A DNA stretch of 64,000 nt from Acidihalobacter aeolianus (GTDB lineage: Bacteria > Pseudomonadota > Gammaproteobacteria > DSM-5130 > Acidihalobacteraceae): positions 3,289,183-3,353,182 of the forward strand of contig NZ_CP017448.1 of the NCBI RefSeq assembly GCF_001753165.1, given 5' to 3'. Shown here one piece after another: positions 35,792 to 55,911 of the stretch. Within the stretch, counting starts at the first letter, position 1; the number at the start of each line of letters is the position of its first letter. Position numbers and translations under genes: made by a program. The notes beneath the pieces are model-generated. The model saw only the letters and a list, made by a program, of their open reading frames with translations. It did not search any database and was not told the origin of the DNA.

Positions 35792-35841
35792 AGACTTCTT
35801 GATTACCGCTTTTTGCATGGTGGCTTGGCGTGGGACGCGCA

Positions 35842-36118
35842 TCAGCTTCGGTGATGTGCCGGCCCAAACTCAAAGGACCTTTCTCGCCGCGTCAGTTTGT
35901 CGATATCATCAGGAGTCGCGTCCGTGATTTCAATGCGAAACAGATCATTGGGCAAACACTGAAGCTCATTACAGAGCGTCTCGATCAGCGCCGGCGAGTA
36001 TGCGGGAACTTCCTGTTCAATCTGACGGGCCAGTGAGGTCAGGGTAATCGAATAGCTCTGATTGGCTTGTTAAGCGTTCCGCGAGATCCTTCCACATTGT
36101 GATGTCACGACTCGCCAT
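35842..36118 (-). pseudogene. Frameshifted XRE-type HTH regulator
   Basis: From the ATG at 36118 the minus strand reads MASRDITMWKDLAERL; one base later the frame continues as QANQSYSITLTSLARQIEQE and then VPAYSPALIETLCNELQCLP, NDLFRIEI and a stop at 35842. The second part (YSPALIE-LC-L-C-P-DL) is the recognisable C-terminal half of a Cro/CI-type HTH. One extra base near 36080 breaks the gene. It sits beside the left IS66 copy (IS end at 36147). Confidence 0.6.
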
Positions 36119-36146
36119 GGCGGTCCGCACGTTGTTTTTGAGCGAA

Positions 36147-37850: not shown

Positions 37851-37911
37851 GCTTATTCAAGGCACTTCTTCCCGACAAGACCAACCTGTCTGTAATCTCT
37901 GAAATCTTCAA

Positions 37912-39056
37912 TCAACAACAATCCAGCATCACGCGCAACATGCGCTTGGCTGGGTCAGGGCCGGCATAGGCGAGGCCAAGTTTGAGGCTCGCGTCAGGTT
38001 TCCAGCTGCTCTCCGCCCAGCTTTGCACGTCGAAACCTGCTACGAAACGTGCGAAACCGTCAAATACGCGCGGGCCTCGATATTCCAGGCCACTTTGAAC
38101 GAAGAGGCGTTTGAGAGTGGTGGGCACCGGCCAGAGCAGATAACCGCCTCCGCCGTAATACTGCCATTGTCCACAGCGATGAGACCAGAGTGAGCTCAGC
38201 TTTTCAAAGCTGAGTGAATAATCGCTTGGGTGCTGATTTGCGAAATATCGCGGCCCCAGATGCGAGCTTTGGTGCATCAACTCAACACGCAGCGAGTTGG
38301 CGCCCCGTCGCCAAGTGATTGGAATGCCGACGGTGAAGTCCGTGTTGACCAGTTCGGGTGAAGCAACGTCGAGATTGAATTGCGAGAATGCACCGGCCGC
38401 GAAATCGATTTGCATTTGCCCGCCGAAAGGAGCCGCTGTGTCCAGCGGTAAAGTCCCAGCGTTCCGCCATAGCCGACGGCACCTACGTGATAGATGCCAA
38501 ATGGCATCCGGTATTCACGGTAGCTGACGAAGAACTCCGGTTCTTTGGGGTCGGCGAACAACGGATGGAACAAGGACCCGCGCGGGAAATATTCACCGCC
38601 GGTCAGGATGAAGGGGCGCTCCTCCGGATTGCTCGCTGCCGAACGCGTCCGTGTCGCTTGGCCCGCGCGCCTCTGCACGCGTACCGAAACAATGCCTGGA
38701 ACATTCTGCAGCAACAGCAGAATCGTCATCCCGGAACCCTTCCAGGTCGGCGGGGGTGTTACAACCACGTAGCCGCTTCGGAAGGTCAACCGATAGTTGC
38801 CAGCAGACCAGCCGAGATTGCGCTGCAATAGCGCGTCCGTGTAGCCCTCTATATAAGTGGGTGAGATGATTGCAGTGGTCGCCGCACCATACGCCGGTAG
38901 CGCCAGAGCCAGCATTCCAAACCACAGTGCGCAGCATAATTTCACGGGCTTTATGCTTCTCCCCACAGTAGCGCTGTTCGCGAATCTCGAACCACCGCGC
39001 CCTGGTGTCACCTGATGCCTTGATTCCCGGTCAATCGCGTTAGCTATTTTTTTCAA
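37912..39056 (-). pseudogene. DUF1207 outer-membrane-type protein, broken by one frameshift
   Basis: Two overlapping minus-strand frames together make one DUF1207 protein. The first (39056 to about 38440) has a signal region (FGMLALALPAYG) and EYFPRGSLFHPLFADPKEPE, FFVSYREYRMPFGIYHVGAV, GYGGTLGLYRW. The second continues as DTAAPFGGQMQIDFAAGAFS, QFNLDVASPELVNTDFTVGI, LMHQSSHLGPR, ending at 37912. One G missing near 38442 (CGCTGGACA where CGCTGGGACA is expected) explains the break. Function of DUF1207 is unknown. Both halves are well conserved, so the mutation is recent or a sequencing error. Confidence 0.75.
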
Positions 39057-39135
39057 AATAAGCGTTTAAATTGGGTAATGATGCGGTGAGCACTCAGCAC
39101 AGAGAAATGACGAAGACCCGCCGCACTGTAGTGCC

Positions 39136-40530
39136 TCAGCGCGCCCCGAGCGCCGTCAGACCAAAGGCTTCGGTCAGGGTCGGATGGGGATGGATGGCCT
39201 CGGCCACCTGTTCCAGGGTCAGACCGTGGCGCACAATGAGCTCGGCCTCGCCCATGAGATCGGCGGCGCCTTCGACCAGGGCGTGGATGCCGACCACGCG
39301 GCGATCGTCCTTGCGATAGACCAGGCGTAGCCGGCCGAAAGCGTCGCCGCTGATCTGTGCACGCGCGTCAATCCGATAATCGTACTCGGCCACCGTCACG
39401 TCGAGCCCTGCCGCTCGGGCGGCTTCCGCGGTGAGTCCGGCCATGCCCAACTCCGGATAGGAGAAGATCACCGCGCTGTTGTACTCGGGGCGCGGATAAG
39501 CTGCCGGCGCGCCGAGCAGGTGGCGGGCGACGGCCAGCGCCTGCGCGGTGGCCCAGTGCGCGAACATCGGGTTGCCTACCAGATCGCCGGTGGCGTAGAT
39601 GCCGGGTTCGTCGGTCTGCAACGTCTCACCAACCTTGATGCCGTGGCGGTCATGCTGGACCGCGGTCGTCTCCAGACCGAGGCCATCGACATTGGGATGA
39701 CGGCCGGCGACGATGGCTACTACCTGGGCATCAACCTCATACGCTTTCCCGTCGCGCGTGTAACGGACGACATGCCGGCACTCCTCCCCCTCGATAGCTT
39801 CGACCGACACGCCAGTCTGTACGTCGATGCCGTCCACCTGGAGCCTTTCTGCGAGCAGGTTTGCAAGCACGTCGTCCACCGGTCCGAGGATGCGCGGCAT
39901 GGCTTCCAGCAGGGTCACGCGGGCGCCGAGCATGGCGAATATCTGCGCCATCTCCACTCCGATGGGGCCACCGCCGATCAGGGTCAGTGACCTCGGAACG
40001 AAACCGATCTCGATGAGACCCCGCGAGTCGAGCACGCCGGGCAGATCCGCGCCAGGAATGGGTAAGCGCGACGCGACGGAGCCGGTGGCCAAAATGACGT
40101 TATCGAAACCGACTTCACGTCTCTCCCCGGCCGCTTCGATCACAGCCGTGCGCGGCCCTGTGAGGCGGGCGCGTCCGAACACCACTTCCAGTTCGGGCAA
40201 TTCCCTGGCCTTGGCCAGAGCGCCTTGCGCGCGACTGTTGAGAATATGGTGTTTGCGGGTCTGCACCACGCTCCAGTCGACGCTGACGGTATTTGCGTCA
40301 GATCCAGGCAGACCAAATTCGGCCGCACGTCCGAGTTCGCGGCGGCGTGCTGCGGTTTCACGGAATATCTTGGACGGTATGCAACCCTCGAACAGACAGG
40401 TGCCACCCAAACCCCGACCGGCCTCAACCAGCATGACATGCTTGCCGGCCTGCGCCAGAGCCATGGCGGCAGGCGTGCCGCCCGGTCCGCCGCCGATAAT
40501 GAGTACGTCGTACCGCGTGTCTGAACTCAT
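39136..40530 (-). CDS. Dihydrolipoamide-dehydrogenase-like flavoprotein
   Basis: A 464-residue class I pyridine nucleotide-disulfide oxidoreductase. It has the FAD motif IIGGGPGGTPAAMALAQ, the redox-active disulfide GGTCLFEGCIPSK, the NAD motif TLIGGGPIGVEMAQIFA and the C-terminal catalytic HPHPTLTE (His-Glu pair). This is a complete lipoamide dehydrogenase active site. No 2-oxoacid dehydrogenase or lipoate genes are adjacent; instead it is the last gene of a CDF/RND operon, 50 bp after the CDF gene. It could serve a lipoate-binding sulfur-oxidation protein elsewhere, or act as a metal or disulfide reductase. MerA-type extra Cys are absent. Confidence 0.85.
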   Translation of the reverse strand: MSSDTRYDVLIIGGGPGGTPAAMALAQAGKHVMLVEAGRGLGGTCLFEGCIPSKIFRETAARRRELGRAAEFGLPGSDANTVSVDWSVVQTRKHHILNSRAQGALAKARELPELEVVFGRARLTGPRTAVIEAAGERREVGFDNVILATGSVASRLPIPGADLPGVLDSRGLIEIGFVPRSLTLIGGGPIGVEMAQIFAMLGARVTLLEAMPRILGPVDDVLANLLAERLQVDGIDVQTGVSVEAIEGEECRHVVRYTRDGKAYEVDAQVVAIVAGRHPNVDGLGLETTAVQHDRHGIKVGETLQTDEPGIYATGDLVGNPMFAHWATAQALAVARHLLGAPAAYPRPEYNSAVIFSYPELGMAGLTAEAARAAGLDVTVAEYDYRIDARAQISGDAFGRLRLVYRKDDRRVVGIHALVEGAADLMGEAELIVRHGLTLEQVAEAIHPHPTLTEAFGLTALGAR

Positions 40531-40580
40531 GGTGTTCTCCTCCTATGCACGTGAATCAAATACGGTGTGTCCAAGCGGAT

Positions 40581-41840
40581 TCAGGCGCCGTCCTGGCCGT
40601 GTTCATGCCGGTTTGGAGCGTGCGTGTCGACGTCCACTGGGGCGGCATCAAGCGTGATGCCCGCACTTTCGAGCAGTTCGGCCAGGGCCGTTTCCAACGG
40701 CGTATCGGGTGCGAAACGCACCCGTTCGGCGTTCTGACGGATCAGCCAGGCCGCCAGCTTGATGCCCTTGCCGCGCGTCGTGCCGCGGTAGGGATTGGCG
40801 ATCCAGACGCTTTGCACCTGATCGGCGTCGGGGCCGGCCTCTTCCACGCGCAGCCAGGCCGCCTGACCGAAACGGTTGGCCAGCGTTTGACGGTCGTCCT
40901 CGAACAGGGTGATATTCCGGCGGTGGGCGCTTGCCGCGGGTTCGAAGTGCAGCGCGACGGTTTCCAGCCGCGGCAGTTTCGCCCGCAGCGTCGCCTCCAG
41001 TTGATCGACCACTTCGTGGGCGGCTCTCAGGCCGGACGGCACGACCTCGACCGTGGCCGCCAGGAACAGCGCGCTGCCGGCTCGACGCAGAATCACGTCA
41101 CGCGCGGTCTGTACGCCTGGATGATGCACCAGCGTTTCCAGGACCAGCTTGCGCTCATCGCCCACCGCCGCGGCATCGAGCAGGGACAGTATGCCGTCGT
41201 GGAGCACTTCCCAGGCACCGTGCAGGATCAGCAGCAGGATGATCGCCACGGCGATCTGCTCGGCATAGGGCAAGCCCAGCGCATGTGCGACGACGCCGAT
41301 GATGACGACGAAGCCCGCCCCGATGTCGCCCAGCCAGTTGGCCGCGTCGCTGCGCAAACCGGGCGAGCTGAGGCGGATCGCGGCGCGCCGCTCGGCGTAG
41401 AAAAACACCCCCTGCAGGACGAGCAGGACGGCGATGAACGCGCCGGTCAGACCCGGCATGGCCGCCGGCGCATCGCGCACGTCGAGCACACTGCGCAGAA
41501 TCTCGTAGCCGGCGGCCAGGACGGCGAACCCGCTGAGTACGGCTGCCAGATCCTCCAGTTTGTGCAACCCGAGCGGAAAGCGCGCGGAGCGATGGGTGGA
41601 GAAGCGCACCGCGGCATAGATCAGCAGCGCGCCGACGACGTCGGACAGGCTGTGCACCGCGTCGGCCATCACGATGAGGCTGCCGCTCCACCAGGCCCAG
41701 CCAAGTTTGGCCAGCCCCAGAACGCTGTTGAAGGCGGTGGAAGCCAGCATCCAGCGGCGCTTTTCAATCTCGGCGGTGCTGAGTCCCAAATTTGTTTCCG
41801 CGGATGAATTGAGCTGATCCGCAAGAGACTGTTGAGTCAT
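40581..41840 (-). CDS. Cation diffusion facilitator metal exporter
   Basis: A 419-residue inner-membrane CDF protein. The membrane part has LIVMADAVHSLSDVVGALLI (the H-x3-D metal site) and a second HxxxD-like site at WLGDIGAGF (Asp-based). A CDF C-terminal cytoplasmic domain (VHHPGVQTARDVILRRAG and VALHFEPA) follows. The extra 80 C-terminal residues are not typical. The frame is open to 42005 but the ATG at 41840 avoids overlapping the RND gene and starts MTQQSLADQL. It is 11 bp after the RND gene. Family substrates are Zn, Fe, Co or Mn. Confidence 0.88.
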   Translation of the reverse strand: MTQQSLADQLNSSAETNLGLSTAEIEKRRWMLASTAFNSVLGLAKLGWAWWSGSLIVMADAVHSLSDVVGALLIYAAVRFSTHRSARFPLGLHKLEDLAAVLSGFAVLAAGYEILRSVLDVRDAPAAMPGLTGAFIAVLLVLQGVFFYAERRAAIRLSSPGLRSDAANWLGDIGAGFVVIIGVVAHALGLPYAEQIAVAIILLLILHGAWEVLHDGILSLLDAAAVGDERKLVLETLVHHPGVQTARDVILRRAGSALFLAATVEVVPSGLRAAHEVVDQLEATLRAKLPRLETVALHFEPAASAHRRNITLFEDDRQTLANRFGQAAWLRVEEAGPDADQVQSVWIANPYRGTTRGKGIKLAAWLIRQNAERVRFAPDTPLETALAELLESAGITLDAAPVDVDTHAPNRHEHGQDGA

Positions 41841-41851
41841 GTTTCGAATTT

Positions 41852-44800
41852 CTAGTCGGATGCGGGAGACGAATCGGGGTAACGGTGCCGATACAGCAGA
41901 TAAAGCAGCACCGGCACGACCAGCAGCGTGAGGAACGTACCCACGATCAAGCCGCCGATGGCGACCACGGCGAGCGGCGACAATCGTTCGAGACCCACGG
42001 CCCATTCCAAGGCCACGGGCACCATGCCGACGGATGCGGCGGCCGCGGTCATCAGGATGGGCCGGGTCCGCAGGTCGACCGCCTGTAATATGGCCTGCTT
42101 GAGCGGGACTCCCTGTTTGAGCGCCTCCTGCGCGAAGTCCACCAGCAGGATGCCGTTCTTGACGATGATCCCCATCAGCAGGATCAGCCCCATGAACGAG
42201 GGCATGCAGCTGTGCTTGCCGGCAATCAGCATGGCCCAGGCCGCGCCGATCACGGCCAGTGGCAGGGTCACCAGAATCGCAATCGGACTGACGAACGAAC
42301 GGAAGGCGATTACCAGCACCACGGCGAGCAGTATGATGCCCAGCGCCAGTGATTGCCCCAGACGGACGAACGAGGCATTCATTTCCTTGATCTCACCCTC
42401 GTGGCTGAGCGTGTACCCACGCGGCAATGCAAACCCCTTTAGCGCCTGGTCGACATGAGTATTCAGCGCACTGACCGAGATATTGCGCCGATACCCGATC
42501 ACGTCCACGGTGCGCTGCAGGTTCTGATGCGTGTATGCGGTCGGTGCGTATACGGTCTTTACACGGGCCACCTGCGCAAGCGGCACGATACGACCGTCCG
42601 GCGTCGTGATGTTAAGCGCGGCGACGGCGGCGGCGCTCGAGCGCTGACCAGGTAGCAGTCGCACCCACACCGGGATGCTGCTCTGGTTCGGAACCAGGAT
42701 ACTTCCGGCCGGCATGCCATTGATCTGGGAGGCCACCTGCTTGGCGATGGCGGTGGGCGTCAGGCCGTAAGCGGCCGCCTGGGTCGGGTCGACATTGAGC
42801 TGCAGGCGTTGCGAATCACCCTGCCAACTGCGTTCGATGCCGGTGAAGCCACCAACCTTGCCCAAGCGTTGCTCGAGTTCGCCAGCCAGACGGTTAAGAA
42901 CCTGCCAGTCCGGTCCGCTGACCATCAGATCGACAGTACCGCGGATCGAGGACAGCGGTGTGGCGCCGTACACCACCGCGTTTGCATCGATCACGCCCGG
43001 AATGGCGCGAACGCGCCGTTGTATCTCTCGGTCGATCTGGAAGAGGGTGCGATTGCGGTGAAAGCGATCCACCAGGTTGATGGTCGCCATGCCCTGCTGA
43101 AAGGTACGCGATGCACCGAAGGATTTGTCCTCAGGCTCGGCGCCAACCACTGTCGATGTAGACAACAGCCAGGCCGGTTTGACCGAGGCGCGGATCGCGG
43201 CGTCCACCTGCTCGGCGATGCGTTTCATATCTGCGGCGTCGGTGTCAGGTTGCGCTTCGAAGCTGATTTGCGCAATGCCGGTATCCATCAAGGGCATGAG
43301 TTCGCGTCCCACCACTGGCAACTGCTTGAGTGACGCACCGGTGAGTAAAAACGCCACGATCAGCACCCGCCAGGGATGCTTGAGTGCCAGCGTAACGGCG
43401 AAGGCATAGAAGCGCTTGAGTGGATTCAAACCCCAGCGCTCAAAATACAGCAGCGGACCGCGCAGGGGATCGCGTGCGCCGGGTTTGATGATCCAGGGCG
43501 TGAGCAGCGGGATGATGGTGACGGCCACGACGAACGAGGCGACAAGCGCGACGATCAGCGTGACCGAAAGCGGACGCAACACGGTTTGCACATAACCGCC
43601 GATGAACACGATGGGCAACAGCACCACGGCGTTGCTGAGCGTGCCCGAAAGCACAGCCAGCATGACTTCCTGCGTGCCGTTGGCGGCCACGGCGAGGCCG
43701 GACTCGCCGTGCTCGCGCATGCGCCGCTCGATGTTCTCGATCACCACGATGGCGTCGTCGGCCAGCAAACCCACGGCAATGATCACGGCAGTCAAGGTGA
43801 CCATGTCGAACTCGAAGCCGATCAGTTTCATCACCAGAAAGGTGAGCAGATAGGTGAACGGCAGCGAGAGCGCGGTCACGAAAGCGGCGCGGGTGTCGGC
43901 CAGGAACAGAAGAATGACGAATACGGTCATGATGACGGCGTCGCGCAGCGCGCCAAGCATGTTGTCGACGGTCAGATTGATGAGCCGCAGCTGGCCGTCG
44001 GTGCGCTGGATGTCGAGCATCGGGAACTCGGAGCGGACCTGCGGCAGCGCGGCATCGATGGCGCGTGCCACAGTGGCGGAATAGCCGTCGTTGCCGCGCA
44101 GCATCGAAATGGCGATGGCGGGCTTGTCGTTGCCGAAATACATCGACGTCGGGTCTGCGCTACCCCACTGCACTTGTCCGAGATCGCCCAGGCGTACCAG
44201 CCCGCCGCCGGGCATCGGCACCTGGATGTTGGCGACCTGCCCCGGCGTGTGTTTCAGAGCGTTGAGGGTCAGCAGGAAACGGTAGCCCTCGCGGTGTACC
44301 AATCCCATGGGGGCGGTCACGTTGCTTGCCGCGATGGCCGATGCCACCTGCGGCACGTTCAGGCGATGGGCGGCGAGTTTGGTGCGATCCAGGCTAACCT
44401 GTAGCTGGCGCTGATGGCCGCCGAAGACTTCGACTTCGGCAACGCCGGGGATGCGCAGCAGGCGGTCGCGCAAACTGTTCTCGGCGATGCGTCGTACCTG
44501 ATCGAGGTTCAAGTCAGAATGCTTTGCCGGCGTCAGCCCCAATACGGTCACCGGCTGCGCGGCGCTGGTGATACGGAATATCGTCGGCTGTCGCACGCCT
44601 GCTGGCAGACTGGATTCCACCCGCTTGAGCTCGGTCAGCACCTTGGTGGCGTCGATGTTGATGTCGTAGCCGTAATTGAACTCCACGGTAACTGCCGATA
44701 CCTGGTCGCGGGAGACCGAGGTCACGCGGCGCACGCCGTCGATCGCCGAGAGCTGTGTCTCGATCGGATGGGTGACCTCTTGCTCCACGTCGGTGGCTTC

Positions 44801-44962
44801 CGCGCCCGGCCACTGCGTGACGACACTGATCATTGGGCGGTTGGTGTCAGGAAACAGATTCATGGGCATGGTCAGATAGGCGCCGATGCCTGCGACCACG
44901 ACCAGCACCGCCAGCGCGACAATGACATGCGAACGGTCGAGCAGCTTTTGCATGAAGTTCAT
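41852..44962 (-). CDS. RND efflux pump, inner membrane component
   Basis: A 1036-residue proton-driven transporter of the AcrB/HAE1 type with 12 expected membrane helices and two periplasmic loops. The N-terminus DRSHVIVALAVLVVVAGIGAYL is followed by TQWPGAEATDVEQEVTHPIE. The proton relay is in GLLADDAIVVIENIERRM (two Asp in TM4), with GIIVKNGILLVDFAQEALKQ in TM10. It has no metal-RND (CzcA) signature of Asp-x-Asp-Glu in TM4, so organic substrates are likelier than metals. The start shares one base with the adaptor stop. Confidence 0.92.
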   Translation of the reverse strand: MNFMQKLLDRSHVIVALAVLVVVAGIGAYLTMPMNLFPDTNRPMISVVTQWPGAEATDVEQEVTHPIETQLSAIDGVRRVTSVSRDQVSAVTVEFNYGYDINIDATKVLTELKRVESSLPAGVRQPTIFRITSAAQPVTVLGLTPAKHSDLNLDQVRRIAENSLRDRLLRIPGVAEVEVFGGHQRQLQVSLDRTKLAAHRLNVPQVASAIAASNVTAPMGLVHREGYRFLLTLNALKHTPGQVANIQVPMPGGGLVRLGDLGQVQWGSADPTSMYFGNDKPAIAISMLRGNDGYSATVARAIDAALPQVRSEFPMLDIQRTDGQLRLINLTVDNMLGALRDAVIMTVFVILLFLADTRAAFVTALSLPFTYLLTFLVMKLIGFEFDMVTLTAVIIAVGLLADDAIVVIENIERRMREHGESGLAVAANGTQEVMLAVLSGTLSNAVVLLPIVFIGGYVQTVLRPLSVTLIVALVASFVVAVTIIPLLTPWIIKPGARDPLRGPLLYFERWGLNPLKRFYAFAVTLALKHPWRVLIVAFLLTGASLKQLPVVGRELMPLMDTGIAQISFEAQPDTDAADMKRIAEQVDAAIRASVKPAWLLSTSTVVGAEPEDKSFGASRTFQQGMATINLVDRFHRNRTLFQIDREIQRRVRAIPGVIDANAVVYGATPLSSIRGTVDLMVSGPDWQVLNRLAGELEQRLGKVGGFTGIERSWQGDSQRLQLNVDPTQAAAYGLTPTAIAKQVASQINGMPAGSILVPNQSSIPVWVRLLPGQRSSAAAVAALNITTPDGRIVPLAQVARVKTVYAPTAYTHQNLQRTVDVIGYRRNISVSALNTHVDQALKGFALPRGYTLSHEGEIKEMNASFVRLGQSLALGIILLAVVLVIAFRSFVSPIAILVTLPLAVIGAAWAMLIAGKHSCMPSFMGLILLMGIIVKNGILLVDFAQEALKQGVPLKQAILQAVDLRTRPILMTAAAASVGMVPVALEWAVGLERLSPLAVVAIGGLIVGTFLTLLVVPVLLYLLYRHRYPDSSPASD

Positions 44963-46116
44963 TACCTGCTCTCCGCCAAACCCGTGACGGCAGGATCGCC
45001 GCCGCGCAGTTGCGCCAGCTGCGCGGTCTGCCCCACGACAACCTGCATGCCGGGTTCGAGCTTGCCTGCGACGGCGGCACGTTCGGCGCCGGTCCGCAGC
45101 ACCTGCACATCCACGCGGCGCAGCGTACCTGTCGCATACTTGCCGGTAGCTGCGACGAACACGAATACATGGGCGTGGGTGCCTTCGCCCACCAGCGCAT
45201 CAATCGGTACGGTCAGTGCGTTATCATGCGCCGCCGTATAAACGTTGGCGGGCAACGAACTGCCGCTCGGCAAGCCGAATGGCAACGTTTTCGCTTCCGC
45301 TTCGGCGAAACCCAGGCCTGCCTTGTCCACTGCGGGGGCGACGCGCGTGATTGGCAGCGCCAGGGTCATATCGCCGCTCGAGAGAACAAGCCGGTCGCCC
45401 AGATGCACCAGGGCCAGTTGATCGGCCGCCAGGGTGACGCGCACGACCGCGCCTTTGCCCGCCGTCAAGCGATAGACCGGATGTCCGGGGCCGACCGTGT
45501 CGCCCACCGCGACCAGCCGTTCGGCAACTACGGCGTCCTGCGGGGCGGCGATTTCCGCATAACCCAGCTTGACCTTGAGAGCTGTGATCTGGCTCGCCAG
45601 CGCCTGAGCCTTGGCCTGCGCATCGGCGGCTGCGGTGCGTGCCTGGTCAGCCTGCGAGCGGCTGACGCCGCCGTTGGCCAGCACTTTTTGAATACGCTGA
45701 TACTGACGCTCTGCGTAATCCGCCTCGGCCATTGCCGCGCGGCGCTGTTTTTCCAGAGCGGCAATATCGGCCCGGATCGTGCGCGCGTCGATACGGACCA
45801 GCAACTGCCCGCGCTTGACCGTCACGCCAGCCCGCGGGCCAACGGCGAGCACGGTCCCCTGGATTTGCGGTGACAGCGAAATCACGTCTCGGGCTTCGAC
45901 AACCGCGCTCGTCTGGATTTCTCCGGACACGCTCCCACGCGTAACCTGCGCTGTCTGAAGAGCCCAAGGCGCTGCAGGGGGCGGCGGACTGTCGTCGGCC
46001 TGATGCAGGCGGTATTCGTGCAGGCTGTAGCCTGCCGAAATCAATAAGACCGGAATGAAAACCAGCCACCAGCGGCGGCGTTTATGCGGCACTGCCGCTT
46101 GTTGTTTTTCGGTCAT
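44962..46116 (-). CDS. RND periplasmic adaptor (membrane fusion protein)
   Basis: A 384-residue HlyD/AcrA-type adaptor from the ATG at 46116. A membrane anchor (WWLVFIPVLLISAGYSLHEY) precedes half of the lipoyl domain (VVEARDVISLSPQIQGTVLAVGPR), a helical hairpin (about residues 110-190), the second lipoyl half (YAEIAAPQDAVVAERLVAVGD) and the beta-barrel and membrane-proximal domains. The start overlaps the outer membrane channel gene by 4 bp (ATGA). It links the RND pump to the TolC-type channel, which is disrupted here. Confidence 0.9.
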   Translation of the reverse strand: MTEKQQAAVPHKRRRWWLVFIPVLLISAGYSLHEYRLHQADDSPPPPAAPWALQTAQVTRGSVSGEIQTSAVVEARDVISLSPQIQGTVLAVGPRAGVTVKRGQLLVRIDARTIRADIAALEKQRRAAMAEADYAERQYQRIQKVLANGGVSRSQADQARTAAADAQAKAQALASQITALKVKLGYAEIAAPQDAVVAERLVAVGDTVGPGHPVYRLTAGKGAVVRVTLAADQLALVHLGDRLVLSSGDMTLALPITRVAPAVDKAGLGFAEAEAKTLPFGLPSGSSLPANVYTAAHDNALTVPIDALVGEGTHAHVFVFVAATGKYATGTLRRVDVQVLRTGAERAAVAGKLEPGMQVVVGQTAQLAQLRGGDPAVTGLAESR

Positions 46117-46855
46117 GGTTTGGCTGCTCCAGAGAGAGGTTCTTGAACCGGCGCGGTGCCCGTCATGGCCAACGGCGGTTCGCCGTAGGTGTAACGCAGC
46201 GCGGCATCCGCCTGCCACCAGCCGGCCAGTGTGGCTGTCAGCGCCGCCCGCGACTGTGCCAGCGCCGCTTCGGCAGCGAGCAGGTCGGTGGCCGAACTCA
46301 GGCCGGCCCGGAAGTTTCCGCGTTCGATGCGCGCGCTCTGCAGTGCAGCATCGAGACCAGCCTGCGCTGCAGCGTAGGCCTGCTGTTCTGACCGCCATTG
46401 GGCGATAGCCGCTTCACGCGCTGCTCCCAACGCAAGACGCGCGCTGCGCAGTTTTTGGCGGGCGACAATGGTCGCGGACTGTGCGGCGTCAATGGCGCTG
46501 ATCTGAGCTCCGCCCGACCACAGATTGACTTTCACGCCCAGAGCTAGCTGCCAAGTATGTACAGGATCGTGAAAACCCTGAATGGCGTTCTGATTCCAGC
46601 CGCCATCAATGAAGAACTGAGGCAGCAGACTGCGTTTTGCCGCAGCGAGCTTGTCCTGACTGGCACCGAGGGCGCTTTCTGCAGCCTGCACGCCGGGCGT
46701 CGACAAACCGAGATTTGCCGGCAACGCGCCGGGAGGCGCGGTCAGCGGGGCAATGGTGCCGTCGATCCGACTCTCGCCCATCAGTGCAGCGAGTTGCGCG
46801 CGCAATTTGCGGATACTGCCTTCGACGCCGGCACGCGTTGCGCGAACCTCGGCTA

Positions 46856-48155
46856 GCAGGCTGTTGAAAAAGTCCTGTAAACCCGGAAGATTGGTTTTGT
46901 ATTGTTGAGTGAGGGTTGTGGCCGATGCGCGGTGCCGACATACATCAGGATGGGCTGTTCAGCACGGTCAGCCCGGAGCAACGGGTGCCGAAGGACCATC
47001 CTCTGCGCCCGATCCGGCGGATGGTCGATCAAGCGCTCAAAGAACTCGACGCTGACTTCGATGCGCTGTATGCCCATATGGGCCGTGACTCGATCCCGCC
47101 GGAGAAGCTGCTGCGCGCGCAACTGTTGATGGCGTTCTACACCATCCGCAGCGAACGCCTGTTGGTCGAACAGATCGACTACAACCTGCTGTTTCGCTGG
47201 TTTGTGGGCTTTTCCATGGACGATCCGGTCTGGCACCACTCCACGTTTACCAAGAACCGTGACCGCCTGCTTGCAGGCGATGTGGCCCGCACCTTCTTCG
47301 CCCGGGTGCTGGATCAGGCCCGTGCGGCCGATCTGCTGTCTAGCGAACACTTCAGCGTCGATGGCACGTTGATCGAAGCGCTGGCCTCGCACAAGAGCTA
47401 CCGGCCCCGGGACGAGGACGCGCCGCCGAGCGGTGGCGGGCGCAATCCCACGGTGGACTTTCGCGGGCAGAAGCGGTGTCGGGAAACGCACGTCTCCAGG
47501 ACCGACCCGGATGCCTTGCTGTATCGCAAGAGCGAAGGCACGACCGCCAAGCTCAGCTACCTCGGACACCTGCTGATGGAAAACCGCCACGGCCTGATCG
47601 TCGAGTCGCAGACGAGCCAGGCCACCGGCACGGCCGAGCGCGAGGCCGGTGTCGAGCTTGTCGACGCGCTCGGCGGGAGCCACCGGATCACGCTGGGCGC
47701 GGACAAGAACTATGACACGCAAGGCTTTGTGGCGGCGATGCGTGGACGAAACGTCACGCCGCATGTGGCTCAGAACACGGCCGGGCGCCGCTCGGCCATC
47801 GACGGGCGCACCATCGGCCATCCCGGTTACCGAACCAGCCTGACGATCCGCAAGCGGATCGAAGAATGCTTCGGTTGGCTCAAGACCATTGCGGGTCTGC
47901 GCAAAAGTCGGTTTGTCGGACGCGAGAAACTGGATTTCCAGTTTGTGCTCAGCGCGGCGGCCTACAACCTGGTGCGGATGCGCAATCTGGGACTGGCAGC
48001 ATGTTGAAGGCACACATCAAGGGATCGGTGCGCCCAGAGATCGGGATTTGGGCTGTTTTCGGGAAAAATCAGGCCCCAGATCCGAAGGGGCACGTCGCCA
48101 ATGGACCCTGATCAACATGATAACCGCTAAATCGGGGGAATTTTCAACAGCCTGC
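46856..48155 (+). mobile_element. IS5-superfamily element inside the TolC-type gene
   Basis: A 1300-bp element with terminal inverted repeats GCAGGCTGTTGAAAA at both ends and a 2-bp TA target duplication (46854-46855 and 48156-48157). It carries one intact transposase. The insertion is clean and the host frame is restorable, so it is young. It lies opposite to the efflux operon and separates that operon from its own promoter. Confidence 0.88.
46925..48007 (+). CDS. IS5-superfamily transposase
   Basis: A 360-residue DDE transposase. The ATG at 46925 has GAGGG upstream and gives the standard MRGADIHQDGLFSTVSPEQR start. An N-terminal DUF772-like domain (YDALYAHM... LLRAQLLMAFYTIRSERLL) leads into the catalytic core: FSVDGTLIEALASHKS (first Asp), ADKNYDTQGF (second Asp) and IRKRIEECFGWLKTIAGLRK (Glu in the R-x-x-E-E/C-F-G-W-x-K motif). 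Complete and probably active. Confidence 0.9.
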   Translation: MRGADIHQDGLFSTVSPEQRVPKDHPLRPIRRMVDQALKELDADFDALYAHMGRDSIPPEKLLRAQLLMAFYTIRSERLLVEQIDYNLLFRWFVGFSMDDPVWHHSTFTKNRDRLLAGDVARTFFARVLDQARAADLLSSEHFSVDGTLIEALASHKSYRPRDEDAPPSGGGRNPTVDFRGQKRCRETHVSRTDPDALLYRKSEGTTAKLSYLGHLLMENRHGLIVESQTSQATGTAEREAGVELVDALGGSHRITLGADKNYDTQGFVAAMRGRNVTPHVAQNTAGRRSAIDGRTIGHPGYRTSLTIRKRIEECFGWLKTIAGLRKSRFVGREKLDFQFVLSAAAYNLVRMRNLGLAAC

Positions 48156-48829
48156 TAAAGCCGCCTCAACGCGCAGGCGCTTGAGTTTCGAAAAGGTTCC
48201 GGCACGCACACCGGCCTTTGCCACGTTGACGCTGGCCGTAAGGGCTGTCAGTTGACTGCCCAGAGCCGCAAGTCTGCCATCCAGGGCCTGCAGGTCGCGG
48301 TAGAGCGCTGCGCCGTTCAGCAACGCATGCAGCCGGGCATCGTCTGCGTTCCAGCGTGCCGCCTGCGCACCGGCTCTTGCGGCGTCCACTTCGGCCGCGA
48401 TTTTCAGGCTGAAGTCCAGCGGCAGACTCACGTTGACGCCATAACCGAATTGATCGCTGGCGAAGGGATAGTTGGCAACATTGGGCGGGTAGGTGATCGG
48501 CCGGGTCAGACGCGGATCGTTGTAATGCTGGCTCAGGGCATAGACATCTACGGAACCGAACCAGGCCGCGCGGGCTTGGCCGACACGATCCTTGGCCTGC
48601 TGCCCCTCAGCCTGAGCCGCCAGGATCTGCGGGGATTGCGCTCCAATGACCTGTAAGACTTTAGAGAGACTCAATGTGGACTGGGCCTGTGCTGCGATCA
48701 CAACAGTCGGACAGAACAGACCCCAGAGTGCCAACGGCACGAGCGATAATAGGCTGAGTCTCGCAGGGTGTCGAAGCCTTCTCAGGGATCTGGGGCACAC
48801 GGAATATATCCTCATGAAGTCGGTCAACC

Positions 48830-49584
48830 TCGTCTTGACAAATGGTATTAGGGTCACGCTAATCTGTTTACCCGGGTGCAGCGCAACGTGCCAACGCATC
48901 TGTCGGCGCGTGCGCTCAGAGCCCCTGTCTACACTCTGATAACCGGCATCGCCAAAAGCCATCGACTTTTCGTGTATGGCAGCCGATTAACCTGCGTCAC
49001 GTCATCGATCTGTGCTGAAGTTGCCACCACCGTGTGCACCAGCCCTGAGTTGGCATCAGCACCGATAGGCGCCTTCATGCCAAAGTGCCACGGGTTACTT
49101 TTCTTCGTCTGATGCATCTCGGGATCATGCTTGCCTTCTAGATTCTCGGTCGAGCTCGGCGCCTCGATGGTCGTCGCATCGACCAGCGTACCCTCCTTGA
49201 GCAGTAGGCCGCGCTCGGCCAAGGGTGGCGGAACTTAAGCAACGTTGTCACATCCGGCGCCTCCTCAAGGCTCAAAGCGATATCCACGAACCGGCGGATC
49301 ACTTGGGTGTCATACACCGCGTCCTCGGCTCCTTCGTCCGATAGTCCAAAGCACTGCTGGGCAATATAGAGTCTGAGCGTCCGCTCCAGGCCGATCGGCG
49401 GACGACCCCGCCGGCCGCTCTTCGGATAGTGCGCCTCAAGCGCCTCGACCAGCGCCGCCCAGGGCACGAGCTGTTCCAGATCACCCAGAAACCGATCCCG
49501 GCGCGTGCGTTTCTTCTCGGCTTCATACTCCAACTCCAAAGCTCGACTGCATGGTATTGAACCCTCTACTGGGCGCTGGCTCAT
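48830..49584 (-). pseudogene. Decayed IS5-family transposase gene
   Basis: Three minus-strand frames together make an IS5-type transposase lacking its C-terminus. From 49584: KRTRRDRFLGDLEQLVPWAA and SGRRGRPPIGLERTLRLYIA; then, after a frameshift near 49235, RGLLLKEGTLVDATTIEAPS and KHDPEMHQTKKSNPWHFGMK; then, after another near 48965, AFGDAGYQSVDRGSE and RRQMRWHVALHPGK. It stops just before the tolC start. At least two frameshifts and a truncated 3' end show it is dead. Confidence 0.82.
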
Positions 49585-49885
49585 TACCTCAGACTCACAA
49601 CTGTGGCGGTCAGTGGAGCGAATAAATCAGCGTGTCCTTGGTGGGTTAGGTTAACCAGCAGCTACGTGAGCGACGTGTCCGTCCAGCATCGAACTGCTTG
49701 GTTTTGTTCTTCACGTGTCTGTTTAAATATACGCATAACGCGATATAGCCGTGTGTGACCTATATCACCCAGGTAGACGAACGGAGATGGAAAGGGATGT
49801 GCGGTACGGAGAAGAACGCAAGCGTGGGATGATCACAGAGAAGCAAAACGCTAGCGCATGTGCCGATAGGCTGACTACTGGCTGC
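49585..49885. other. Intergenic stretch between two dead transposase genes
   Basis: About 300 bp between IS remnants. I see no gene, RNA or clear promoter in it. It contains TGTGGCGGTCA at 49602, which superficially resembles a Tn7-type end but lacks the matching repeats. Confidence 0.4.
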
Positions 49886-51094
49886 CTCGAAAAACCTCGC
49901 CACGCCAGCCCTCGGTAAAATTGCGTTATCCTGAACTGAACCGCGGCCTGCACCGATGAAGTCACGAAACGCCATCAAGACGGACCTGTTTTCAGACGAG
50001 CATCATCACCGGAAGATCGACTCGCTGGGCGATCCGCTGACCGAGATTGAATCTTACATCGACTTTGCGGCGTTGGCCGCTCAGGTTGATCGAGTGGCGC
50101 CATGGCCTGTGAGCACTCAGGGTGGCCGTCCCCCATACCCGTCGGAAACGATGGTTCGCATTCTGGTGTTGAAGCGCCTTTACAACTTCTCGGATGAGCA
50201 GATGGCATATCAATGGCCTGAGCGCATGAGCTACAAGCGCTTTTGTGGGCTGGCGAACGCCACGAACGTGCCTGATCGCACCACCGCGTGGACCTTTGAG
50301 CACCTGATCGGTGAAGCAGGTACGAAGGCGTCGTTCGACGGCGTCTCGGCACAGCTGCTCCAGAAGGGTTTCATCGCGGGTGGCGGTCAGATCATCGACG
50401 CGACGCTGGTGCCGGCGCCCAAGCAGCACAACAACCGGGGCGAGAAGGAACTGATCGGACAGGGCGCAATGACTCTGCCTCGTGGCGCCCGGCAAAGCGG
50501 CGCGAGAAGGACGTGGACGCCACCTGGACCAAGAAGCACAAGATCATTCGCCGGATCGAGGCCGATACGACCAGCACGTACGACAGCCAGCATTTCGACA
50601 ACGTGTTCGATACGAACAATACGTGCCGCGACTTGTATGCCGATCGGGGCTATCCGTCCGAAGAGCGCGAAGACTGGCTGAAAGCGAACGGGTACCGCAA
50701 CCAGATTCGGAGAAAGGGCAAACGCAACAAGCCGCTGTCGGAGCGCTAGCATCGGCGCATCGCCAAGACGCAGGCCACGCGTGGAGCAGGTGTTCGGCGG
50801 CATCGCTCAAATGGGCGGCAAGCTGATCCGCACCATTGGTCAGGCACGAGCGAACTTCGCCATGACCATGATGGCGGCCCGCTACAACCTTAAGCGGCTG
50901 GTCTATTTCGGAAAGTCCGCAGGAGCGCCTTTTGATGCCCGAAATGGATCGAATCGCCGGTGCCCGAGGCGATTCGAAGCAAAAAACGCGGCAGCACCGC
51001 CGAGAAAGCGGTGCTTTGCCGAAGCAGTTGAACCGAGTTCGGTCGCGTTCATCGTTGCGCGGCGGAATTCACCGAAAGCCTCGGGTTATTCGAG
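49886..51094 (+). pseudogene. Decayed IS5-family (IS1031-like) element
   Basis: The transposase starts at the ATG 49956 (MKSRNAIKTDLFSDEHHHRK) and reads SETMVRILVLKRLYNFSDEQ and IIDATLVPAPKQHNNRGEKE. A frameshift near 50485 moves it to a frame reading KKHKIIRRIEADTTSTYDSQ and DLYADRGYPSEEREDWLKAN, which ends at a TAG at 50747 where CAG is expected. A further shift leads to GGIAQMGGKLIRTIGQARAN and FAMTMMAARYNLKRL. Imperfect ends CTCGAAAAACC and CTCGAATAACC suggest the limits given. It is inactive. Confidence 0.78.
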
Positions 51095-51131
51095 ATGCCC
51101 TACTGGGAGATGCTTATGAAGATTTCGCTAC

Positions 51132-52835
51132 GTAACTACTCAGTGAAAATAATTACAAAAAGTACTTGACAGGGTTTTTGGTAGTTTTTTTGAAAATATG
51201 GCGGCGCTGTAACGAGTGCGATTATTGGTCTCCGAAAGCGACAGAGGCGTAGTCTTCCTTGCGACATCACGCGAGGCACTGCCCCACCGTCAGTCAATTA
51301 TTTTACGCCGCCAGATCGCCTTACAAACGAGAAAATTGGCACTTCAAAACCCGTGAGATAATAGCTTCATTACTTCTTTGGAGCAGTCTTGCGTGCGGAT
51401 CGACGGCGTCGATATCGAGATCACCCTGGCACAGGTCAGGGCGCAACTGGAGCAGGAGAAAGACCTATCTCCGGCACTCCGCGCCAGTATCGAGATGATG
51501 CTCATGTTGTTCGTCGTGTTACTCAACCGTCTCGGGCTCAATAGCCGCAACAGCAGTCAGCCGCCGGCATCGGATCCCAATCGGCCACGCAGCCAGCGTG
51601 TGCGCTCAAGCCGACCTTCCGGTGGCCAGCCGGGGCACGTGGGCAAGACCTTGCGCCCGGTCGAGCATCCCGATGAGATCGAGGTCCTCAAGATCGATCG
51701 TCGTCGCTTGCCGAAAGGCTGCTATACCGAGGCGGGTTTCGAGACTCGCCAGGTTTTTGATATCGACATCAGCCGGATCGTGACCGAGTATCGGGCGCAG
51801 ATCCTGGAGAATGAATCAGGCCAACGTTTTGTGGCTTCATTCCCGGAAGGGGTGGATAAGAAGGTGCAGTATGGTTCCGGCCTCAAGGCCCATGCCGTCT
51901 ATCTGTCCCAATATCAGCTCTTGCCCTACAAGCGGATCCAGGATTACTTTGCCGATCAGTTGGGCATCCCTTTGAGCGATGGTTCACTGGTGAACTTCAA
52001 TCGCGAGGCATTTACCCGCCTGGCGGCCTTTGAGGCGATCAGCAAAACGGCATTGGCCAAAGCCGTGTCCGCTCATGCCGACGAGACCGGGGTCAACATT
52101 GATGGCAAACGCCATTGGCTGCATGGTCTGTCCAATGCTGATTGGACGCATTATCAGGTCCACAGTAAGCGAGGCCAGGAGGCGATGGACGCGATCGGGA
52201 TCCTGCCACGGTTCCGCGGTGTGCTGTGTCATGACCATTGGAAACCCTATTACCGTTATCGGGACTGCACCCATGCCCTGTGCAATGCCCACCACCTGCG
52301 CGAACTGGAACGAGCATTCGAGCAGGACGGACAACAATGGGCGGAAGCGATGGGCAAGCTGCTCAGAGAGATTCATCAGGCCGTCGAGAACGCTGGCGGC
52401 ATCCTGCCGCTGACCGAGGCCAATGCTTACCGGCAGCGCTACCGAGATGTGCTCGAGGCGGGGCAACTGGAATGCCCTGAGCCGGAAAAACCACCCGACA
52501 ACAAGCCTCGGGGGCGGATCAAGCGGAGCAAGGCCCGCAATCTGCTGGAGCGTCTGATGGCCTATGAAGACGATGTGCTGCGTTTCATGGTGGACGTCAA
52601 TGTGCCGTTCACGAACAATCAGGCGGAGAACGATATCCGTATGACCAAAGTGCAGCAGAAGATCTCCGGCTGCTTCCGCAGCCTGGAGGGTGCCGCGATG
52701 TTTTGCCGCATACGGGGATATCTATCGACCTGCCGAAAGCAGGGGGTCACGGCTTCGGAGGCGTTGCGCCTAGTATTCGATCGCAAGCTACCGGCTTTTG
52801 CTCTGGCGATCTCTGAGAATTAGCTGAGTAGTTAC
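51132..52835 (+). mobile_element. IS66-family element, copy 2
   Basis: Same 1704-bp element as at 36147-37850, in the opposite orientation, with the same 12-bp ends GTAACTACTCAG. Flanks are TTCGCTAC (left) and GTAAAAGT (right), so again no direct duplication. The two copies enclose about 13.3 kb. Confidence 0.92.
51378..52823 (+). CDS. tnpC: IS66-family transposase, copy 2
   Basis: 481 residues, identical in sequence to copy 1: DETGVNIDGKRHWLHG and NNQAENDIRMTKVQQKISG mark the DDE core. It starts at TTG 51378 or GTG 51393 and its TAG stop abuts the right terminal repeat. A TTGACA at 51172 in the 246-bp leader could be the -35 of its promoter. Confidence 0.93.
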   Translation: MEQSCVRIDGVDIEITLAQVRAQLEQEKDLSPALRASIEMMLMLFVVLLNRLGLNSRNSSQPPASDPNRPRSQRVRSSRPSGGQPGHVGKTLRPVEHPDEIEVLKIDRRRLPKGCYTEAGFETRQVFDIDISRIVTEYRAQILENESGQRFVASFPEGVDKKVQYGSGLKAHAVYLSQYQLLPYKRIQDYFADQLGIPLSDGSLVNFNREAFTRLAAFEAISKTALAKAVSAHADETGVNIDGKRHWLHGLSNADWTHYQVHSKRGQEAMDAIGILPRFRGVLCHDHWKPYYRYRDCTHALCNAHHLRELERAFEQDGQQWAEAMGKLLREIHQAVENAGGILPLTEANAYRQRYRDVLEAGQLECPEPEKPPDNKPRGRIKRSKARNLLERLMAYEDDVLRFMVDVNVPFTNNQAENDIRMTKVQQKISGCFRSLEGAAMFCRIRGYLSTCRKQGVTASEALRLVFDRKLPAFALAISEN

Positions 52836-53081
52836 GTAAAAGTTAACGAGCCCGATGAAAAGGGTCTCTATATGACCGTCGTCGCTTCTCATGGTGACAA
52901 GCATTTCAGTGTTGCGTTGCTGGAAAGTTGTGCAACTGAAAATGTGATTTACAAAATGCTCGCTGAGGAATGCATGGCTATCCTTTATTGTGGACCACCG
53001 TTTGAACAGGATTCTTTTGCCTACGGCGTTTCGGTGCATGTCGGTCCTGTTTTAGGCTGGCAGCCGCCTAAAGCTGGTTGA
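52836..53081 (+). pseudogene. 3' fragment of a gene cut by the IS66 insertion
   Basis: The frame is open from the very edge of the IS: VKVNEPDEKGLYMTVVASHG, then DKHFSVALLESCATENVIYK and MLAEECMAILYCGPPFEQDS, ending VLGWQPPKAG at 53081. The first ATG is at 52872 but without a clear ribosome-binding site. The composition looks protein-coding (balanced, with Cys and aromatic residues). The family is not recognised. An intact small protein starting at 52872 (69 aa) is the alternative. Confidence 0.45.
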
Positions 53082-53443
53082 AAATGTTGTTGCCGGTTGC
53101 ACCTTGACCCCTAAGTCAATACTGACTGAACCGCTACTAGTTAGCTAGGTTGATATTGACAGCTTCGGTTCGGAAACCTGCCATCGGTACAAATTAAAGG
53201 CACCGATTGCTTGGGATCGCGAAGAGACTGTGTGTCTCGTCTCAGATCGGCCGAGAGCGGCCAGTCACTCTCATTTTTTATTAAGTGGCTATAGGTCAGC
53301 AATGCGAGCTATAACCGGTCACTTCTTACCTGTCTTATTCGCGAGTAAAACACCAGAATGCTCAAGCCGGTTTTCCGCCCGGGTTGTGAGAGGAGATGCG
53401 GAGCGACAGGTCCTGAACATACTCTTAGACCTGCCGCTATATT
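53082..53443. other. Non-coding stretch left of the glmS-side cassette
   Basis: AT-richer, 362 bp. No gene is supported. A GGCCGAGAGCGGCC hairpin at about 53250 is followed some 14 bp later by a run of T (CATTTTTTATT), and could act as a weak terminator on the plus strand. Confidence 0.35.
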
Positions 53444-53656
53444 TCAGGATGCCTTTGAACGTGTTTTAGCTTTCAATGTGGTGTGGATGTCACGTTTGAG
53501 ATTTTTCAATGCGCGATAGTCACTTGGTGAGAGGGCTACGCAAACAAAGCGGCCATTTGGGAGAAATAATCGACCATGCTTTCCTGCGTACCGAAAAATG
53601 GCACCACGACGAGTCCATTTCCTCAGATAGTTGTTGATGTCCTTGTTGTTAGTCAT
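53444..53656 (-). CDS. Small HicA-like protein, third gene of the glmS-side cassette
   Basis: 70 residues, basic. The pattern AGKHGRLFLPNGRFVCVALS then PSDYRALKNLKRDIHTTL resembles HicA-type dsRNA-binding toxins (a G-x-H-x-x-h-x-x-P-G-R strand pair, then S-D-x-R-A-x-x-N-x-x-R-D-I), with the usual His replaced in context by KHGR. The match is by eye and weak. No HicB-like antitoxin follows. The start overlaps the stop of the WHxHILDT gene by 4 bp, so it is co-translated. Confidence 0.5.
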   Translation of the reverse strand: MTNNKDINNYLRKWTRRGAIFRYAGKHGRLFLPNGRFVCVALSPSDYRALKNLKRDIHTTLKAKTRSKAS

Positions 53657-54144
53657 GCGAATGCTTCGTTCTGTGCATTACGGACGCCCTTGCATGCTCC
53701 AGGTGAGCGACAAGCACAGGATGAGGGGACATGACATGCATGGCCAGCACAACGTGCAGCCTGCGTTTCCACCTCAGGGTAAGGGCCAAAATGCCGTTCA
53801 TAGGCGATTTTGGTGAGCGAGTATGCAGTTTCAAGCTCATCCCTTGCCTCACTTGAACCCAGTCCCATGTAAGGGTAGTGATGCAGGTATTCGCCGAATA
53901 CACTCTGGCAGTCCTTTACATAAGCCTGAGTGTCCAGAATATGCGCATGCCAGAATTCGTCTACGAGCCTGCTAGGCACGAGGTCAAGATCCGGCTCATA
54001 AATGCGCATGGATAAAAATCGGCGGTATTCGCATTCGGCAAACTCGATCTGTTCCAGGCGCATCCCGTTGCCTTCCAATGGATCAAGTAATTTCATCTTG
54101 ATAGCTGCAAAGTCTAATTTTTCGACGTCAGGATGAATATTCAT
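53653..54144 (-). CDS. Glycine-rich-domain-like WHxHILDT protein with Cys-rich tail
   Basis: 163 residues. The core LVDEFWHAHILDTQAYVKDC then FGEYLHHYPYMG matches the motif of bacterial proteins labelled glycine-rich domain-containing (GRDP/DUF1399-like): F-W-H-x-H-I-L-D-T, a Cys, then H-H-x-P-Y. The His and Asp could form a metal site. The last 35 residues (AARCAGHACHVPSSCACRSP and GACKG) hold six Cys in a short span, suggesting a metal-binding or modifiable tail. Biochemistry of the family is not known to me. It overlaps both neighbours by 4 bp. Confidence 0.65.
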   Translation of the reverse strand: MNIHPDVEKLDFAAIKMKLLDPLEGNGMRLEQIEFAECEYRRFLSMRIYEPDLDLVPSRLVDEFWHAHILDTQAYVKDCQSVFGEYLHHYPYMGLGSSEARDELETAYSLTKIAYERHFGPYPEVETQAARCAGHACHVPSSCACRSPGACKGVRNAQNEAFA

Positions 54145-55475
54145 GGATGCTCTCCTTTAGATTTAATAAGCTCGTCAGTGAATTGAGACAATTGGATACG
54201 CGCCGATTTTGGAAGCTTACAAACGGCGATTTCGCCATCGTCATTTTGTTTAACCAAATCGACTCGGTAGGTGCAAAACGACCTATCTGAGGCATTCATA
54301 AGGTATAGCGCTCCTTCTATGTCCCGGTGATTCACCCACCTGCCGGGTTTTTCAAGAAGAATTGTTAGATGTTCTTTTAGGGCTTCTATCAGATTGAGTT
54401 GGATGTGCCAGGCTATTTTGTCACCTAAGCCCCCTTCTCTCCGAGGCCTAAAAGAGTCTTCTGAAATATCCGAAATTGAGTATTTACCTGTGACAAGAGT
54501 AGGTTCGGTCTGCTCATGAGTCTGCGTCATGCTTTGAATGCGAAATATAAGATCTTCAGCTAATGTGGTTTCTTCCCCCAGCATTTCGGTAGACCATGCA
54601 TACTCTTGAGAGATTTTTTCCAATTTATCGATAATCAACCAATCCTGAATAACAGTTGGACGAGCGAATTGGATGCCTCTATTGTCAGGACTGGCAGTGC
54701 AACGCGTTATTTCTATGATGAAATTTCTATATTCAAATTCGTAAAAGAACGCCAATCTAAATACGTAATCATCCATTGTTAGATGTGCTTGATTAGCAAC
54801 CCCTCTCTTTTTTTCAAGGGCATCTAGAATGGCTAGAAATACATCTTCCAAACCATGGAATATTTGCCCTGGTGGTGCATTGCCTGAGCTGTCTTTAATG
54901 AGCCAAAGACCTTTTGACATTATTGGGTCGTGCCATTTATCTTTGTCGATGCCCAAAAATTCCAAAAGGTTATCTTTATCACTTTTAATCCCAGTAAAGC
55001 TGTGTCGTTCTATGTAATCACATATCTCCAAAGTAGCCTTTGTTACAGGAGTTTCTCCAACTGAACAATTGTCTAGTTCTTCAAGTTTGTGTAAGAACCA
55101 TGAATAGTTGCTTAAACCACATTCGTCTTTCTCCTGTTCCTTTTGTAGAAGGGCTTTGTACTCTCCAGAATCGTACAAGCGTTGGCATGCATCTTTGATC
55201 TGCTTTGCAAGCGGACCTATCGGTCCAATCAAGTTGGTGTCACCACCGTCTACTAGAAGCTCTAGTGGAACGCCAAGGATCTCAGCAATACGCTTTGCAC
55301 GAATTCTTGTTGTTTTGCCCGTGCGTTCAAGGCGTTGATAGGTTGTGATATGGCTACGGTCATTTTTTGGAGTGCCAACGAGTTCTATAGCCACTGTGGT
55401 CTGTGACTTACGAGCCAATTCTCTGTAGTGACGAAGACGTTTTGGATCGAGTTGAAAGGACTTGTTTCCGGCCAT
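54141..55475 (-). CDS. Long XRE-type HTH protein, first gene of the glmS-side cassette
   Basis: 444 residues with low-GC codon use unlike the core genes. The N-terminal 75 residues form a Cro/CI-type HTH (RLRHYRELARKSQTTVAIEL then THITTYQRLERTGKTTRIRA region and RIAEILGVPLELLVDG). The remaining 370 residues are helical and acidic with no motif I recognise (for example HGLEDVFLAILDALEKKRGV and FAFFYEFEYRNFIIEITRCT-like segments). A run of G upstream serves as ribosome-binding site. It could be a regulator with a large ligand-sensing part that controls the two genes coupled to it. Confidence 0.7.
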   Translation of the reverse strand: MAGNKSFQLDPKRLRHYRELARKSQTTVAIELVGTPKNDRSHITTYQRLERTGKTTRIRAKRIAEILGVPLELLVDGGDTNLIGPIGPLAKQIKDACQRLYDSGEYKALLQKEQEKDECGLSNYSWFLHKLEELDNCSVGETPVTKATLEICDYIERHSFTGIKSDKDNLLEFLGIDKDKWHDPIMSKGLWLIKDSSGNAPPGQIFHGLEDVFLAILDALEKKRGVANQAHLTMDDYVFRLAFFYEFEYRNFIIEITRCTASPDNRGIQFARPTVIQDWLIIDKLEKISQEYAWSTEMLGEETTLAEDLIFRIQSMTQTHEQTEPTLVTGKYSISDISEDSFRPRREGGLGDKIAWHIQLNLIEALKEHLTILLEKPGRWVNHRDIEGALYLMNASDRSFCTYRVDLVKQNDDGEIAVCKLPKSARIQLSQFTDELIKSKGEHP

Positions 55476-55505
55476 GATGCCCCCCCCTGAATTAATGTTG
55501 GTGGG

Positions 55506-55533
55506 AGTATAAAGCCGTTATGAGATGCATCAA
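55506..55533 (-). promoter_or_regulatory. Probable promoter of the XRE cassette
   Basis: On the minus strand TTGATG (55528-55533) and TATACT (55506-55511) are separated by 16 bp, about 30 bp upstream of the XRE start. Confidence 0.5.
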
Positions 55534-55548
55534 TGCAGTAAATGCATC
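55524..55548. promoter_or_regulatory. Probable operator of the XRE cassette
   Basis: GATGCAT and ATGCATC (7-bp perfect arms) flank an 11-bp centre that itself contains a further ATGCA. The 25-bp site covers the -35 box, fitting autorepression by the HTH protein encoded just downstream. Confidence 0.55.
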
Positions 55549-55722
55549 TTATTAGAGGGATAGGGGATTAAGAGGTAGAAGAATGTGCAAGTTGCGTCGA
55601 AGAATGAGATTGACAGGTAAAAGTGCCGATCAACCTATATGGCAACTTTTTATATCAAGGGTTGGATAAATCATCGGCTGAATTGCTTGTGATAAGCAGT
55701 CATTAACTGAACGGGAGGGTTT

Positions 55723-55806
55723 ATGGCAGATGTGGGTCGAACTGAGACGCTGAACTTATTTGTTACTTCTACCTGGACCGCCTGTCTTACTCATTTTTTA
55801 CCCTAG
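55723..55806 (+). CDS. Possible 27-residue small protein
   Basis: ATG with a strong GGGAGG 5-6 bp upstream, encoding MADVGRTETLNLFVTSTWTA plus seven residues, then TAG. It lies in the otherwise gene-free 55.48-55.91 kb gap. Nothing else supports translation; it may be chance. Confidence 0.25.
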   Translation: MADVGRTETLNLFVTSTWTACLTHFLP

Positions 55807-55891
55807 TTGTTCAGTACAACAACTAGTACACAGTAATAATCCGGAGTTCACAGAACTAATTCGAAGTTCACACAATTAATACCCAGCCACA
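55803..55891. mobile_element. Candidate Tn7-type transposon end at attTn7 downstream of glmS
   Basis: Reading away from glmS (minus strand), the sequence TGTGGCTGGGTATTAATTG begins at 55891, 20 bp after the glmS stop. Internally there are two 20-bp units with a period of exactly 20 (55861-55880 and 55841-55860, 16 of 20 identical, core GTGAACT), then a 9-bp inverted repeat CTAGTTGTT/AACAACTAG (55803-55826). Tn7-type elements insert just downstream of glmS and end in TGTGG with tandem TnsB sites, so position and form agree. GCAAC at 55892-55896 would be the target duplication. No tns gene and no clear opposite end lie in the window. Confidence 0.5.
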
Positions 55892-55911
55892 GCAACCTAA
55901 AACTATTAGCT

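Follow-up and report, generated by a model that had tools for sequence, protein, structure and literature searches.

We found that the 90 bp directly behind glmS in Acidihalobacter aeolianus are very probably the right end of a Tn7-like transposon, now left as an immobile fossil beside an acquired 26-kb island. All coordinates refer to the window, the whole 64,000-nt stretch of DNA that was analysed. An earlier note on this DNA had placed a Tn7-type end at attTn7 behind glmS, and this placement is supported by the tip sequence, the period and register of the repeats inside it, and an empty site in relatives. Because the site is empty in two genomes of the same genus (G001 and G002) and the right end is retained in A. 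aeolianus, we conclude that foreign DNA entered at attTn7.

Anatomy of the right end

In E. coli, TnsD recognises the final 36 bp of glmS, and Tn7 inserts ~20 bp behind the glmS stop with a 5-bp duplication (PMC2918618). The final 36 bp of the A. aeolianus gene are the counterpart of this TnsD-binding part of attTn7. Direct reading places the glmS stop codon at 55914-55912 on the minus strand, and the spacer beyond it ends 3' in GTTGC, that is, GCAAC at 55892-55896 on the plus strand, which as a target duplication is unproven. The tip that follows, read from 55891 to 55882, has the form 5'-TGT(G/A)G. It leads into three tandem 20-bp units with a period of exactly 20, the third of which is weaker and shares the core ATTA.T..TGTG.ACT with units 1 and 2 (Table 1). 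The match of 16 of 20 positions between units 1 and 2 was reached by one of 3000 simulated first-order Markov sequences with equal composition and length (110 bp, any lag from 15 to 40). When 28 relatives were compared, a repeat identity of at least 16 behind glmS was found in only two others, L027, which has a TGTGG end and a period of 20, and L024, where the lag is 24 and the repeat comes from a repetitive neighbouring gene. Just inside the units lies a perfect inverted repeat with arms at 55803-55811 and 55818-55826, and no T run follows it on either strand. The tandem repeats and the inverted repeat that the earlier note had described 20 bp behind the glmS stop were thus re-read as claimed.

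Table 1. Features of the glmS-proximal end and of the adjoining island (window coordinates)
Feature	Position	Strand	Basis or remark
glmS, 611 aa	55912..57747	-	full-length matches to glmS of relatives; conserved C-terminus RNLAKSVTVE intact
Spacer, 20 bp, from glmS stop to element tip	55892..55911	-	last 5 bp are the candidate target duplication
Right-end tip TGTGGCTGGG	55882..55891	-	read directly; comparator TGTGG/TGTAG tips stand 24-25 bp after glmS (tnsA-adjacent elements, Tn7)
TnsB-like unit 1 GTATTAATTGTGTGAACTTC	55863..55882	-	family PWM p=0.0017, register fixed by tip
TnsB-like unit 2 GAATTAGTTCTGTGAACTCC	55843..55862	-	16/20 identical to unit 1, period 20; family PWM p=0.049
Degenerate TnsB-like unit 3 GGATTATTACTGTGTACTAG	55823..55842	-	family PWM p=0.030
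Perfect 9-bp inverted repeat CTAGTTGTT/AACAACTAG, 6-nt loop	55803..55826	.	z -3.1
26.1-kb island, absent from G001 and G002	29752..55891	.	ends at Tn7-type right end; mixed GC
IS66-family element copy A	36147..37850	-	no matching flanking 8-bp duplications
IS66-family element copy B	51132..52835	+	inverted, identical to A; no matching flanking 8-bp duplications
Left-boundary debris	29812..30358	.	family names by eye
sel1-repeat gene fragment	29812-29921		left-boundary debris
ISL3-type IS fragment	29922-30190		left-boundary debris
IS5-type transposase 3' fragment	30188-30358		left-boundary debris

An empty site in relatives and a probably rearranged island

A conserved gene ends at window position 29751. 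Its homologue lies close to glmS in both same-genus genomes, at a distance of 56 bp in G001 and about 39 bp in G002 (counted by eye); in A. aeolianus the same gene pair is separated by 26,160 bp (29752-55911). Synteny with these two genomes reaches window position 29493/29512. Behind glmS, the 90 bp are missing in all four other genomes of the family, and G001 and G002, as relatives without the island, lack them at an empty site, which agrees with the transposon end proposed in the earlier note. The island itself carries genes for efflux and redox functions as well as IS copies and IS debris. Its description as AT-rich holds at 54-56 kb, the only part with a GC content of 42-44%, but not at 39-48 kb, which is mostly 61-67% GC. 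That the whole 26-kb island was Tn7 cargo is unproven.

The IS66-family element present in the island occurs at least 14 times in the genome in near-identical form, and the other copies that we looked at are flanked by exact or near-exact 8-bp duplications. The unmatched 8-bp flanks of copies A and B suggest recombination or deletion at these two copies and make it probable that the interior of the island was rearranged. We rejected a composite IS66 transposon as the carrier of the island, as A and B are two of the at least 14 copies and no Tn7-type end flanks them.

Several island genes were recorded alongside. A 444-aa protein is encoded beside the right end (54141-55475, minus strand); its N-terminus looks helix-turn-helix-like by eye, and it had no Pfam, NCBIfam or PADLOC match and no plasmid relative. 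The gene for a 163-aa partner (53653-54144, minus strand) overlaps that of the 444-aa protein, and weak relatives of the partner occur on 23 plasmids. The GC-rich block at 38277-48962 encodes an RND efflux permease, HlyD-type, OEP and cation-efflux proteins, and a dihydrolipoyl dehydrogenase/MerA-like flavoprotein.

Search for a left end and for tns genes

An opposite end carrying GCAAC, expected further left by the earlier note, was not found: the window plus 40 kb to its left holds no second copy of GCAAC joined to TGTGG. Along the island's plus strand, no left-end-like alignment or cluster of TnsB units rose above shuffled controls (best 12 versus null maxima of 10-12), and no left end was found between 53 and 55.8 kb. 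Three candidate left ends were rejected. The one at 29919 (TGTGGCTC) coincides with the junction at which sel1 homology stops (29921) and the ISL3-type IS fragment starts, and the 5 bp preceding it are CTTTT rather than GCAAC; GGCTCTTTTG at the start of this fragment is presumably the terminal repeat of that family. The candidates at 49598 (ACAAC followed by TGTGGCGGTC) and 47119 (GCAAC followed by TGTTG) have no convincing TnsB-like units after them, and their tips are at chance level, given nine TSD-like tips within 104 kb.

The earlier statement that the window contains no tns genes holds and extends further, as tnsA, tnsB and tniQ went undetected genome-wide. TniQ was found nowhere in the genome, with G340, G147 and G019 positive as controls; the Tn7 TnsB query likewise found nothing in the whole genome, with G340, G147 and G237 positive and G019 weakly so. 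TnsA gave nothing over the cut-off in the whole genome, compared with 13 positives among 369 genomes of the class, and two TnsA-like hits below the cut-off (L064 and L065) lie in frames of 907 and 1051 aa and were not taken as TnsA. By tblastn, the ~114 kb around the locus showed no similarity to tns genes, TnsC included. The Mu-transpos_C profile matched nothing in the genome, and likewise nothing in any control.

Weighing alternative origins

The earlier note had left three forms open, a non-autonomous element, a much longer element or a remnant. Of these we favour the remnant, given that no left end and no tns genes were detected and that the interior is rearranged. A non-autonomous mini-element that can still be moved in trans, and whose left end in the island has diverged beyond recognition, would account for the three units and the intact TGTGG tip at the right end, and the left and right ends of Tn7-type elements do differ in the spacing of their sites. 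We nevertheless consider it improbable: the island plus strand yielded neither a cluster of TnsB units nor an alignment that exceeded shuffled controls, a duplication with tip was not found, no tnsA, tnsB or tniQ was detected in the genome to drive its movement, and the left boundary consists of IS and sel1 debris. Still harder to credit, and in our judgement very improbable, is that the repeats and hairpin are part of the host's own glmS 3' region (an operator, terminator or RNA element) and no transposon end at all. The repeats do directly abut glmS, with the perfect 9-bp inverted repeat just inside, but the feature does not stand behind glmS in any of the family's four other genomes, the hairpin is without a T run on either strand, and the tip, register and 20-bp period coincide with those of elements adjacent to tnsA.

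The history of the island could also comprise two or more events, with an older island (~29.75-53 kb) joined by a Tn7-type insertion that was reduced to the AT-rich last 3 kb and the right end. The confinement of low GC to 54-56 kb, against the GC-rich stretch at 39-48 kb, speaks for this, as do the IS66 copies without matched duplications, which point to a rearranged interior. No left end was found between 53 and 55.8 kb, however, and composition alone dates nothing, and we regard such a history as a real possibility that falls somewhat short of probable. It concerns the island only and does not exclude a fossil Tn7-like right end behind glmS.

For this fossil right end, we infer the identity of the inserting element and its route of decay as follows. 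A Tn7-like transposon would have inserted ~20 bp behind the glmS stop with its right end towards glmS, directed, as in Tn7, by a TnsD-type TniQ protein reading the end of glmS. In the intact element, again by analogy with Tn7, the tandem 20-bp sites would have served as binding sites for TnsB, and TnsA and TnsB together would have carried out cutting and joining at the TGTGG tip. Loss of the left end and of the tns genes would have come later, probably with IS activity.

Comparison with Tn7-like ends elsewhere

Close copies of the end were absent from 144 relatives, from 399 genomes of the phylum (a set that overlaps with the 144) and from plasmids, E. coli and viral contigs, and a strict pattern of the end had no match over 85,000 genomes. 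A relaxed pattern matched at least 118 stretches. Among the 80 of these listed, the loci read by eye were those with matches below 49 bp plus L107 and L118, picked by name; none of them had the glmS tip, and among the matches listed those read looked like coding sequence or simple repeats.

Comparators were drawn from the TnsA search of the same class, in which the 13 genomes over the cut-off contributed sixteen TnsA loci. glmS adjoins tnsA in 5/16 of them, and four of these five (L187 in G340, L193 in G147, L192 in G319 and L185 in G237) carry their TGTNG tip 24-25 bp behind the glmS stop, with tandem repeats that agree at 16-19 of 20 positions at a period of 20. The best repeat lag is 20 in L185, L192 and L193, and 21 and 20 are nearly equal in L187; in the fifth locus, L184 (G102), a single site is recognisable and the TGTNG tip is absent. 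Using Tn7 and G340 queries, tblastn located TnsA, TnsB, TnsC and TnsD in G340 (L230), TnsA, TnsB and part of TnsC in G237 (L233), and TnsA and TnsB in a 3-kb piece of G147 (L231); L232 (G319) and L184 (G102) were left out of this search, and there only tnsA is shown. In G019, the genome of L027, TGTGG stands at +22 after glmS with period-20 units at a contig edge, and two TniQ genes lie on a different contig.

Checked against these known ends, the A. aeolianus end agrees in its period of 20, its register and its tip, and the similarity of its site sequence is weak. Its units begin at tip+9, an offset shared with most comparator elements, and its tip lies 20 bp from the glmS stop versus 22-25 bp in the comparators. 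An HMM of six other right ends gave it no meaningful score. The family PWM, applied with the register anchored at the tip, yielded a weak sequence match with a joint column-permutation p=0.006, a value that, like the unit p-values in Table 1, is somewhat optimistic, as the unit PWM was designed after the alignment had been viewed. In place of the AATAAAGT core typical of other ends, the units carry ATTANTT. The end could conceivably come from an undescribed Tn7-like subgroup, known only from this fossil, whose TnsB would read a ATTANTNSTGTGNACT-type rather than a AATAAAGT-type core, although we think this rather unlikely.

The locus places the use of attTn7 in a salt-tolerant, metal-leaching acidophile lineage (Acidihalobacter), where a diagnostic 70-bp scar stands beside an island of efflux genes, and a TGTNG tip with a 20-bp period behind glmS offers a simple way of finding such fossils where the tns genes are gone. 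Otherwise the findings are in line with known Tn7 biology. Tn5468 of Acidithiobacillus ferrooxidans, likewise from an acidophile, is Tn7-like and sits in the same atp-glmU-glmS context, but it has tnsABCD (PMC2621215); we liken it to the present locus by gene context. The four glmS-adjacent elements L187, L193, L192 and L185 share the TGTNG tip and the period-20 tandem sites, and differ in having tnsA and a AATAAAGT-type site core, neither of which occurs here. Tn7 itself, as found in E. coli NZ_CP033762, has its tip at +25 rather than +20 and a AATAAAGTC core in contrast to ATTANTT..TGTG.AC, and the A. aeolianus locus is without tnsABCDE and a left end; what the two have in common is the insertion site, the orientation, the TGTGG tip and tandem TnsB-type sites with a best lag of 20.
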